A program made the translations under genes and the position numbers. A DNA stretch of 33,533 bases from a virus: positions 1 to 33,533 of IMG/VR virus record IMGVR_UViG_3300031963_009720. One strand, 5' to 3'. Shown in pieces: positions 611-27,340 of this stretch; the stretch's first letter is position 1, and every line of letters begins with the position of its first letter. The notes under the pieces are model-generated. The model had not been told where the DNA came from. It ran no database searches and was given only the letters and a program-made list of their open reading frames with translations.

Positions 611-2143
611 TTATTTTATATCGTACAACAAAGCGTCTTTAGGAAACACGAAGTTTCCACCGATGATATTTGGTTTTTTATTGAATATGAGAACATTCTT
701 TCCTTTTTGGAAAATCATCCAATCTGTTGAATATTGTTTGACATTACCTGTACCTGTAAGAATTATCTTATCACCTTTTTCTATTCTATCTTTGAACCCC
801 TTGATTTGTGCGGTGTATTCTTTTCCGTCTACGGTGATTTTTGCGTCGATACCCTTTGTCATATCTTCTTCGTCTCCCAACCCACCAGTTTTAACTGCGG
901 ATCCCGCTCCCAAAAATCTATTGATGATTGCAACTGTAATTTCTTCCCTTTTTTCTCCTGCTGAGTCAGTATCAATCAATGTTCTCATTAAGTTTTGGAA
1001 TGTAGAACTTTCCTTGTCAAATATTCTGAATTTAAAATGGTCTATTGCCTTGTTGAATCTTGTTATTTCTGCAAGTTGTTCGCCTGGCGTCTTACCAACA
1101 AAATCTATCAACGGCTTTTTCGGATCAATAGATTTGATCACCTTATTTATATCGTTAACCAATATACAAAAAGCGTTGTAGTTGGTGTTTAGTTTATTTA
1201 CAACAGATCTACCTGGTGATTCCAAATTATAAACACCGGCCATGTTTCCTTGATTGTCCCTTTCGGCCCAATTTTCTCTGAATACCTCTCTTAATACGTT
1301 GTTGATATTAGCACTGTATTCGTATTTTATCTTTTTGTTTACATTAAACATTACTCTCACAGCTTCAACAAACTCACTAGAACACTTCTCTGATTTTCCT
1401 TCAGATAAAATCTGTTTGAATTTTATAGACTCAGCTAATTTTGTTTCCGTCTTCATCTCATACATTTTTGAAACAAAGTCCCAATTTACCACTTTCCAAA
1501 AATTTGCAATGTACTCGTCTCTTTTGTTTCTGTATTTCAAATAATAAGCGTGTTCCCACAGATCAAGACCCAATAAAGGAAAACCCCCACCTTCAATTAC
1601 ATTCATCAGCGGGTTGTCCTGATTAGGAGTTGACATTATCTTCAACTTGTTTTGACTCGTTAATACCAACCAAACCCAACCTGATCCGAATCTTTCTTTG
1701 GCTATTGTTTCAAACTCTTTTTTGAAGTTGTTGAAATTTTTATATTGTTTTTTGATTTTCTCTTCGAGTTCCCCTTTTAGTTTCATTGGTTTTGGGGATA
1801 ACATATTCCAAAACAATGCGTGATTGAATGCACCACCTGCGTTGTTTCTTATTGTTTTGTCATACTTTGATATCGATTTTATTATCTTCTCCAAATCGAG
1901 ATCGCCGTATTTTTTCTTAGAAAGTGCGTCGTTTAGTTTATCAACATAGCCTTTGTAATGTTTGTTGTAGTGGAAGTTCATCGTTTCTGCGTCGATGAAT
2001 CCTTTGAGGGCTGAGTAAGAATAGGGTAATTTTTCTATTCCTATTTTTTTCATTTCTGTGATTAACAACTTGGTTTCTTCTTGAATGTGTGTTTCTGTAA
2101 TTTGTTTTTCAAGTTGTTCAATCTTCTGTTCTAGTTTATTCAT
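611..2143 (-). CDS. Mn/Fe superoxide dismutase fused to a C-terminal PD-(D/E)XK nuclease-like domain
   Basis: The 510-residue product has a short helical leader (1-35) and then a full Fe/Mn superoxide dismutase domain at about 38-230. All four metal ligands are present: His58 (NFHYNKH), His108 (FNHALFW), Asp194 and His198 (LDLWEHAYY). Tyr66 and the flanking GSGWVWLV and FWKVVNWDF blocks also match. Residues 103-104 are Gly-Gly and Gln175 lies in NQDNPL, the arrangement of Mn-type enzymes rather than the Fe-type Gln in the first domain. Bacterial SODs are about 200 residues, so about 275 extra residues follow. Their last part (about 395-505) has Glu400/401, then GIDAKI (Asp433) and AQIKG (Gln446, Lys448), the spacing of a PD-(D/E)XK active site with a Q-x-K variant. 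The SOD call is firm; the nuclease fold is inference. The preceding TATTTATA motif suggests late expression, so it may be packaged or act late against superoxide. Confidence 0.9.
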   Translation of the reverse strand: MNKLEQKIEQLEKQITETHIQEETKLLITEMKKIGIEKLPYSYSALKGFIDAETMNFHYNKHYKGYVDKLNDALSKKKYGDLDLEKIIKSISKYDKTIRNNAGGAFNHALFWNMLSPKPMKLKGELEEKIKKQYKNFNNFKKEFETIAKERFGSGWVWLVLTSQNKLKIMSTPNQDNPLMNVIEGGGFPLLGLDLWEHAYYLKYRNKRDEYIANFWKVVNWDFVSKMYEMKTETKLAESIKFKQILSEGKSEKCSSEFVEAVRVMFNVNKKIKYEYSANINNVLREVFRENWAERDNQGNMAGVYNLESPGRSVVNKLNTNYNAFCILVNDINKVIKSIDPKKPLIDFVGKTPGEQLAEITRFNKAIDHFKFRIFDKESSTFQNLMRTLIDTDSAGEKREEITVAIINRFLGAGSAVKTGGLGDEEDMTKGIDAKITVDGKEYTAQIKGFKDRIEKGDKIILTGTGNVKQYSTDWMIFQKGKNVLIFNKKPNIIGGNFVFPKDALLYDIK

Positions 2144-2149
2144 ATAAAT

Positions 2150-2170
2150 GGATTATTCTATAAATAATCC
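2150..2170 (-). promoter_or_regulatory. Hairpin carrying the TATTTATA motif before the SOD-fusion gene
   Basis: GGATTATT (2150-2157) is exactly complementary to AATAATCC (2163-2170), with a 5-base loop. On the minus strand TATTTATA occupies 2159-2166, overlapping the loop and one arm, and ends 15 bases before the ATG at 2143. The stem is AT-rich and has no U-tract, so a terminator is unlikely. It may be a promoter with dyad symmetry, or an RNA hairpin near the 5' end. Confidence 0.45.
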
Positions 2171-2179
2171 GTAAGTTCG

Positions 2180-3934
2180 TTATTGTCTACGTTGGTTAAT
2201 TTGTTTCATAATTTCTTCTACTATATCTACATCATTCTTTACATCACCCATCACCGTAGCAATAACTTGTTTTTTCTTATTGAGTATGTCGTAAATGATA
2301 CCTTCTATGGTATTTTCAAATATTGGATAGTAAACTAGTACATTGTTTTTTTGTCCGTATCTATATGCTCTGTCTTCCGCCTGAGAGTGGTCGGACGGTA
2401 AAAATGATAAATCGTTCATGATAACAGCTTCAGCGGCAGTCAGGGTAATTCCCACCCCAGCGGCTTTTATATTACCAACGAACACTTTTACTTTATCATC
2501 ATTTTGGAATTTATCTACACTATTTTGTCTGTCGGGTTTTGACATTGATCCATCTAATCTAACAGCCGCTTTCCCGAAGTGTTGTACAATCTGTTCTAAT
2601 GAGTTTGTGAAGTTACAAAATATAATAACCTTTTTACCTTGTTCTATGATGTTTTCCGCTAATTCAATAGTATTCAAGACTTTCTCATTTGCAATCACTT
2701 GTCTTACCTCAGTTAGTTTGGTGAACTGTACTGTTAGTGATTTACTTTCATCAGGATTTTTTTCGTACCAATTGTAATAGTCACCCATAACTTCCTCATA
2801 TTTTTTGGATTTCAGTCTAAGGTAAACTGGGGTAATAATTTTGTCAGGTAGATCCAACACATTTTCTTTCAACCTTCTTAGGACCATGTTGGATGTCCTG
2901 TCTCTGAGTTCCTCAAGATTGGACGCACCCATAACGTTCCAAACTTTTCTAGCACCAACTTTGAACTGATACCCCTCACAATATCGGATAACATACGCCA
3001 TCCAATTTTTGGCAACAGGAGAATCCACGAGGTTCAAGAGATTATAATAATCTATGGGTCTTGAAGTCATGGGAGTACCAGTCAATAACCAAAGTCTATC
3101 AACTCTTTTTACAAAGTCGTTGATGAGTTTGGTCCTTTGGGCTTGAGGATTTTTAATATAGTGTGCTTCGTCAATAACCACCAAATCAAAACCGGCTCTA
3201 AGAATCTGCGAATCATCTTTCTTTTTAGGGTCATGGAAATTTTTTATAATGTCATAGTTTATGATAACAAAGTCGTGTTCCGTACTGAAGTTCTTACCTT
3301 CGGAAATGTATACCGATCTTTGTGTGTAATTTTCTATTTCTCTTTGCCAGTTAATCTTCAAAGAGGCTGGACAAATAATCAGAATTTTCTTTGCACCTGA
3401 TTCGAGAGCCGCTATAATGGTAGACGTAGTCTTGCCAAGACCCATATCATCCGCCAAAACATAACGTTTATTTTCAACCAACTTTTGGATAGCTTCTTTC
3501 TGATGGTTGAGTGGTGGTCTGTTAGAATATTTTTCATAGTTGATATTAACGTCTTTTACGGTGTGGTCTTTGATCACAGCCGCTTTTGGTAACCAAAATT
3601 CATGGAGAGATTCCGATTCAAAAACTTTACCCCAAATATGGTACGCTTTATCTTTTTCGGCCAATAGTTTTTCAACCCAAACTTTTTCAGGTATTTGAGT
3701 ATAAAGTTTATCGTTAGCTAGTTTCTGTGCGAAATAGGTGTCTAACATTGCCCACTTCTTTGCAACTTTAGGTTGTTTATCGTGGTTATTGATAATGTAT
3801 TCTGATTGACTTCTTGTTGGATAGAACTTTTTGTTGAGTTGGAATTTACGTTTGAGTTCCTGAATATAATTGTTGGAACCTTCGTAGGTTTCCAAAATTG
3901 AAAGTGCTTTAGATTCTATTGATATGTCACTCAT
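2180..3934 (-). CDS. SNF2-family ATP-dependent DNA translocase/helicase
   Basis: The 584-residue protein has two RecA-like lobes of the SNF2 (superfamily 2) type. In order: an N-terminal accessory region (1-135), the Q-motif-like stretch LNHQKEAIQ at 142-150, Walker A ADDMGLGKTT at 161-170, ICPASLKINW at 187-196, DEAH at 255-258, LTGTPM at 284-289, lobe-2 motif IV (VIIFCNFTNS) near 436-445, motif V (GNIKAAGVGITLTAAEAVI) near 487-505, and motif VI DRAYRYGQKN at 521-530. The last is the SNF2 RAxRxGQ arginine-finger motif and distinguishes it from T4 UvsW. It resembles the SMARCAL1/HepA type, which remodels forks or displaces proteins from DNA. Its start overlaps the SET gene stop by 4 bases (ATGA-type overlap), so the two are translationally coupled. 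It could serve replication fork restart or host-protein removal; which is not visible from sequence. Confidence 0.93.
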   Translation of the reverse strand: MSDISIESKALSILETYEGSNNYIQELKRKFQLNKKFYPTRSQSEYIINNHDKQPKVAKKWAMLDTYFAQKLANDKLYTQIPEKVWVEKLLAEKDKAYHIWGKVFESESLHEFWLPKAAVIKDHTVKDVNINYEKYSNRPPLNHQKEAIQKLVENKRYVLADDMGLGKTTSTIIAALESGAKKILIICPASLKINWQREIENYTQRSVYISEGKNFSTEHDFVIINYDIIKNFHDPKKKDDSQILRAGFDLVVIDEAHYIKNPQAQRTKLINDFVKRVDRLWLLTGTPMTSRPIDYYNLLNLVDSPVAKNWMAYVIRYCEGYQFKVGARKVWNVMGASNLEELRDRTSNMVLRRLKENVLDLPDKIITPVYLRLKSKKYEEVMGDYYNWYEKNPDESKSLTVQFTKLTEVRQVIANEKVLNTIELAENIIEQGKKVIIFCNFTNSLEQIVQHFGKAAVRLDGSMSKPDRQNSVDKFQNDDKVKVFVGNIKAAGVGITLTAAEAVIMNDLSFLPSDHSQAEDRAYRYGQKNNVLVYYPIFENTIEGIIYDILNKKKQVIATVMGDVKNDVDIVEEIMKQINQRRQ

Positions 3935-4329
3935 CGGTTCTCTTCCTTAACTCTTTTTATCATGTCCCAATATTCTTCGGACCCGTAGTAAACCAAAATC
4001 TCTTCCCCTTTTTCGATCTCTCTCAATGCGTAGAACTCAAAGGTGTTATTTTCTTTGTTAGATCTCCAAGCGGCACTTGCTTTTTCGCTATGATTATAAA
4101 ACATACCATAACCACCAGAAACTACTTGTTTCTCAGGGTTTCCACCTTGAGGCCAGTTAAATCTATAATCTATTAGAATACGTGATGGATCAGAGTCTTT
4201 CAAGTTGATGTCAACAATGGGACAGATTTCGATCACTTCCCATATTTTGATTTTATTGCTGGCGAACACACCTATCCCGTGTATTGGACTTTTATCCAAA
4301 TATATTTTGGTGGGTGGGTTTATTCTCAT
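3931..4329 (-). CDS. SET-domain protein (predicted lysine methyltransferase)
   Basis: Starting at the ATG at 4329 this is 132 residues. SET signatures are visible: SPIHGIGVFAS near the N terminus (the SAM-binding G-x-G), a central GGYGMFYNHSEKASAAW with the NHS core motif, and the C-terminal REIEKGEEILVYYGSEEYW (the GEE-I-x-x-x-Y motif with the catalytic tyrosine region). There is no pre-SET or Cys-rich post-SET segment, as in small bacterial and viral SET proteins. The frame stays open to an ATG at 4377, but a Bacteroidota-type promoter lies between the two ATGs, so 4329 is preferred. It is first in a two-gene operon with the SNF2 protein, overlapping by 4 bases. The substrate is unknown; candidates are host nucleoid or translation proteins, or phage proteins. 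Confidence 0.85.
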   Translation of the reverse strand: MRINPPTKIYLDKSPIHGIGVFASNKIKIWEVIEICPIVDINLKDSDPSRILIDYRFNWPQGGNPEKQVVSGGYGMFYNHSEKASAAWRSNKENNTFEFYALREIEKGEEILVYYGSEEYWDMIKRVKEENR

Positions 4330-4343
4330 AACAATTTTTAAGA

Positions 4344-4375
4344 CAAATATAATTCTTTCCGATGTATTTATCAAC
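4344..4375 (-). promoter_or_regulatory. Bacteroidota-type promoter for the SET-SNF2 operon
   Basis: On the minus strand GTTG (4372-4375) is followed by a 20-base spacer and TATATTTG (4344-4351), an exact match to the TAnnTTTG -7 element of Bacteroidota. The expected transcript start falls a few bases before the ATG at 4329, giving a very short leader. Confidence 0.6.
4365..4372 (+). promoter_or_regulatory. TATTTATC motif before neck gene, overlapping the divergent promoter
   Basis: TATTTATC ends 5 bases before the ATG at 4378, the same spacing as the motif before the leftward gene starting at 586. It overlaps the -33 region of the divergent SET-SNF2 promoter by one base, so the two promoters may compete. 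Confidence 0.4.
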
Positions 4376-4377
4376 AT

Positions 4378-27308: not shown

Positions 27309-27340
27309 TTTGACAGATGGACTATGTTCAACTATATTTG
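27309..27340 (+). promoter_or_regulatory. Bacteroidota-type promoter of the SSB gene
   Basis: TTTG (27309-27312), 20-base spacer, TATATTTG (27333-27340) match the Bacteroidota -33/-7 consensus at both elements. It begins directly after the terminator T-run and lies 35 bases before the ATG at 27376, consistent with early host-polymerase transcription of the replication block. Confidence 0.75.

Follow-up and report, generated by a model that had tools for sequence, protein, structure and literature searches.

A short gene for a SET-domain protein, overlapping a gene for an SNF2-type ATPase, brings together in a tailed phage two folds familiar from chromatin, and raises the question of whether the two proteins act as a pair or are neighbours for other reasons. 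The original prediction favoured a pair. In its fullest form this is a phage analogue of chromatin remodelling: SET would methylate SNF2 itself or, in the host, nucleoid proteins or RNA polymerase, and these host proteins would be displaced by SNF2 as it translocates on DNA. The window (the whole stretch of 33,533 nucleotides analyzed; IMG/VR record IMGVR_UViG_3300031963_009720) comes from a T4-like tailed phage of freshwater and forms a virus record of 33.5 kb. Tail sheath, tube and baseplate-type ORFs are present, to judge by sequence and synteny rather than a family search, and the window also encodes a UvsX-like recombinase, an SSB and a DnaB-like helicase.

The two reading frames, their families and their overlap are as originally described. 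The SET ORF (132 aa) spans 3931 to 4329 and the SNF2 ORF (584 aa) 2180 to 3934, both on the minus strand, and the stop of the former and the start of the latter share the 4-nt ATGA at 3931-3934 (-). The ATG at 4329, chosen at first reading as the SET start, is preferred over the in-frame ATG at 4377, because the latter would be placed before the promoter and lacks counterparts in relatives, which share the N-terminus M(R/K)IxPPTKIYL counted from 4329. The order of the locus is constant over 80 loci: sheath, g346, often a gp82-like gene, g170, a divergent promoter, SNF2, SOD-fusion, neck, g112 and polB; SET, where present, sits between the divergent promoter and SNF2. The SOD-fusion, which follows SNF2 directly in almost every relative examined, encodes in the window an Fe/Mn superoxide dismutase fused to a C-terminal domain of about 275 aa (611-2143, minus strand; PF00081, PF02777 and synteny). 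Deposited phage SODs match the SOD part alone of this protein, and the C-terminal domain found no significant match among the solved structures searched. In a 735-kb uncultured phage lacking this SNF2 (LR756501, locus L102, 5020-6354), SET is divergent from a protein weakly matching the same C-terminal domain (36 bits).

The SET ORF matches Pfam SET (PF00856) over the full profile, positions 1-105, with an E value of 4.9e-14 and 53.1 bits against a cut-off of 22.4. In an alignment of 34 SET sequences spanning phages, bacteria and archaea, there is no variation at G20, F22, N79, H80, E110 and Y115 and hardly any at G18, counting residues from the start at 4329. The GxGVF motif, the Asn-His pair of the SAM site, whose contacts in SET domains have been described (PMC1282579), Glu110 and the catalytic Tyr115 are all kept. 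Catalytic tyrosine and SAM site, on whose retention the original prediction depended, are thus both intact. By these residues SET looks active, and it is best read as a protein-lysine methyltransferase of the vSET/SpSet7 type.

The nearest solved relatives are compact SET enzymes, namely 5h6z ('SET domain-containing protein 7', SpSet7, Set7 of S. pombe), 4rz0 and 1n3j (vSET, from a chlorella virus). Set7 (E 3.5e-23) and vSET, the A612L product of PBCV-1 (E 2.9e-18), are like the window protein stand-alone SET domains devoid of long flanking domains, and have the same SAM-site Asn-His and catalytic Tyr; unlike the window SET, which comes from a tailed phage, they belong to eukaryotic settings, in which histone H3 is available. 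A histone-like substrate encoded by the phage itself was considered and set aside, no HU or histone gene being found in five long records of relatives. This speaks against a functional pair, and the analogy with chromatin drawn at the outset is one of fold names. SET genes had already been annotated in tailed phages of Stenotrophomonas (Moby, Mendera, Ps15; PMC9025141). These proteins differ from the window SET, to which they are about 33% identical over 78% of the query, and the gene of Moby has small hypothetical genes arrayed around it, with no SNF2 next to it.

The SNF2 ORF matches PF00176 (SNF2-rel, E 5.5e-30), PF00271 (Helicase_C, E 1.5e-20) and the DNA helicase family phrog_62 (E 1.1e-116); Walker A (DMGLGKT) and DEAH motifs are invariant in relatives. 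The family is common, being found in 1179 of 50,697 phage records at E 1e-10, and a scan of viral contigs in IMG/VR identified 573 relatives of the window protein. Domain order is that of the SNF2/SWI2 helicases of PHROG 62, but the window lineage is distinct, less than 60% identical to any deposited phage protein, and features a conserved N-terminal region of about 140 aa. With RapA, ZorD, DISARM DrmD and eukaryotic remodellers only the ATPase core is shared: the window protein reaches no curated NCBIfam whole-protein cut-off and lacks RapA, nuclease and chromatin-reader domains. A defence role of the ZorD, DpdE or DrmD kind was similarly discarded, as matches to the shared core fall far below the curated cut-offs.

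SNF2 is a core gene of this phage group, and the only strong SF2/ResIII-type ATPase in the five long records. A dedicated UvsW besides SNF2 was sought; the second SF2-like match, checked in one record (G026) alone, turned out to be the DnaB-like helicase. Snf2/Swi2 helicases have been proposed to replace UvsW in jumbo phages in a comparative study (PMC7824862). SNF2 is most likely a core recombination or replication helicase, which probably stands in for T4 UvsW.

SET and SNF2 are preceded by a Bacteroidota sigma-A-type promoter, TTG-N20-TATATTTG, located at 4374-4344 (-), ahead of the SET ATG. The arrangement TTGATAAATAC...TATATTT(G/A), with the same 20-nt spacing, is kept in relatives with and without SET; in the SET-less ones the promoter is retained in front of SNF2. 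The number of motif copies in the window (3 found vs. 0.99 expected) is not significant by itself, so that the case for the promoter is made by conservation and position. The sole other intergenic copy, TTGACA...TATATTTG, is found at 27310-27340 (+), ahead of the SSB gene. TAnnTTTG is the consensus of the sigma-A -7 box in flavobacteria (PMC9723704), and the promoter type therefore suggests, as the one indication used, a host among the Bacteroidota.

A different element marks other genes. TATTTAT occurs 16 times in the window, nine of them no more than 70 nt ahead of a gene start (binomial p 1e-11, a descriptive value, since the motif was spotted in the same data and its occurrences are treated as independent). 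The nine gene starts follow their copy at a distance of 13-40 nt, in the same orientation (e.g. 4365, 10746, 12243, 14074, 26386 and 30760 on the plus strand, 2166 on the minus strand). The genes so marked include g170 (4378, plus strand), first of the divergent structural block, whose motif at 4365-4371 (+) overlaps the TTG region of the SET promoter, and the SOD gene, which has its own copy at 2160-2166 (-); SET and SNF2 are not among them. The reverse complement of TATTTAT forms the core of the T4 late promoter TATAAATA, and the motif is possibly the late promoter of this phage group. Lacking it, the SET-SNF2 unit probably belongs to a separate, likely early, expression class. Transcription of both genes from one host-type promoter, as first proposed, is upheld by the conserved element with its fixed spacing. 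The shared promoter and the tight packing of the two genes, together with the intact catalytic motifs of both products, are what a functional pair would show.

Neighbourhoods were surveyed in the 80 closest of the 573 SNF2 relatives (82-100% identity, near-copies included). An apparently full-length SET lies directly upstream of SNF2 in 57 of them, a truncated one in two (L012 and L013), none in 21. Adjacency thus recurs in most close relatives, far beyond chance, though it is not fixed, and in this respect the survey bears out the original prediction and favours a pair. The spacing between the two genes varies, including the 4-nt overlap, 1-nt overlaps, gaps of 0 to 12 nt and, at truncated SETs, 25 nt; the exact geometry of coupling is therefore not conserved.

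Sixteen of 53 distinct SNF2 genes are not accompanied by an intact SET. On the tree of the 53 proteins this pattern needs about 10 changes, at least nine of them on well-supported branches. SNF2 is thus stable without SET, which argues against a pair, and the co-occurrence expected of a conserved SET-SNF2 module is not upheld. Relatives with one gene only, named in the original prediction as evidence that would count against it, do occur. A SET was sought over the entire length of the 21 SET-less and two SET-truncated records, without success; two of these records measure 317 kb and 122 kb, and most of the others are short fragments. Remnants of the gene are visible in some relatives: both SET ends are retained around an internal deletion in L014, a deletion scar, and 46 codons are left in L012. 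Conversely, two non-identical SETs are arranged in tandem upstream of SNF2 in L031 (4136-4989), L072 (4190-4989) and L156 (5902-6767).

Relatives with a missing or degraded SET might be taken to mean that the gene has no biological role, its position next to SNF2 reflecting mere compact packing at an insertion hot spot. This is very improbable, as SET is under strong purifying selection and its catalytic residues are invariant across very divergent proteins. The dN/dS ratio is 0.03-0.09 in most close SET pairs, reaching 0.29, and 0.01-0.05 in close SNF2 pairs, values unreliable in detail because several dS exceed 1. SET evolves faster than SNF2, yet is strongly constrained.

Scanning with a SET profile yielded 80 viral loci, in 65 of which SET adjoins SNF2; two are at a contig end, and in 13 the genes are not adjoining. 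Five of these 13 records encode SNF2 elsewhere (71-74% identity), at about 6 to 220 kb from SET, and there the divergent promoter region leads straight to SNF2, with no SET in between. In these five sister phages the two genes are separated, and adjacency whenever both are present, a further mark of a conserved module, does not hold. Nor was any SNF2 neighbour found at 39 loci of bacterial and archaeal SET relatives, a sample drawn from one peptide pattern. Both observations weigh against a pair. SETs related to the phage proteins (33-40% identity) are found in many genomes of Methanoculleus and other Methanomicrobiales (L183-L206, L214). A GreA/GreB-type transcription elongation factor is encoded near SET in one phage contig (L157, 5103-5576).

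In several phages with a relocated SET the gene is surrounded by glycosyltransferases and an NAD-dependent epimerase, or adjoins adhesin-like or neck-like structural genes; sugar-modification genes lie near SET in all four inspected of the five sister phages. These neighbours may indicate that SET modifies lysines on surface proteins of the phage's own virion (tail fibres, adhesins, capsid), evading receptors or defences, and a fast turnover of SET would fit selection in an arms race. The neighbourhoods are indirect support, however, and the window SET is under a host-type promoter, as opposed to the structural genes, marked by TATTTAT. A role at the virion surface is rated as unlikely.

The divergence of the two genes is uncoupled. 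In 40 distinct pairs of adjoining genes, the identity of SET is hardly correlated with that of SNF2 (rho 0.18), in disagreement with the correlated divergence expected of a conserved module and with a functional pair. In L027 and L031 the SNF2s are 98% identical, the directly adjoining SETs 31% (L031 has a second SET further upstream). The L019 SET groups, with strong support, with those of L140, L141 and L156, the L019 SNF2 in the clade of the L022 group. With its few columns and many weak forks, the SET tree was used for its starred groups only.

Gain and loss, relocation and uncoupled divergence all speak against joint action of SET and SNF2, and this part of the original prediction is not sustained: a functional pair is considered unlikely. 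The literature searched, with partial coverage, did not mention phages in which SET and SNF2 are paired. The locus is best explained, with a probability of about 0.62, by SET being an independent accessory methyltransferase located at an insertion site ahead of the core SNF2 helicase, both genes being served by an early host-type promoter. SET would be a moron-like gene, repeatedly gained, lost, duplicated and replaced, which settled at a permissive site next to the divergent promoter, directly upstream of SNF2; the latter would be a replication or recombination ATPase, probably a substitute for UvsW. The shared promoter would place both genes in the early class read by host RNA polymerase, and SET would therefore probably methylate, early in infection, a protein of the host or of the phage, with no need of SNF2. 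Against this explanation stands the strong co-localisation inside the group, 65 of 80 sampled phage SETs adjoining SNF2, by which a selected partnership may exist in a subset. Joint action may thus occur in some phages; its positive support is confined to co-transcription.

A host protein is one possible substrate of SET, the surface of the phage itself another, and substrates can differ between subtypes. That SET is replaced rapidly while purifying selection acts on it suggests conflict or adaptation to the host. A broader proposal, improbable as a whole, is that diversifying phage lysine methyltransferases act early in infected Bacteroidota on host transcription, nucleoid or defence proteins and, where the gene lies beside SNF2, that both proteins act together.

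A lesson of the locus is that operon overlap in a single phage genome does not amount to evidence of a functional pair. SET in phages was known from annotation; what is new is that large freshwater phages have a SET family under selection and in rapid exchange. Hardly any work exists on protein-lysine methylation by phage enzymes, and the literature searched, covered in part, contained nothing on the subject. The many natural SET variants, with SET-less sister phages as controls, offer a means of finding the substrate.
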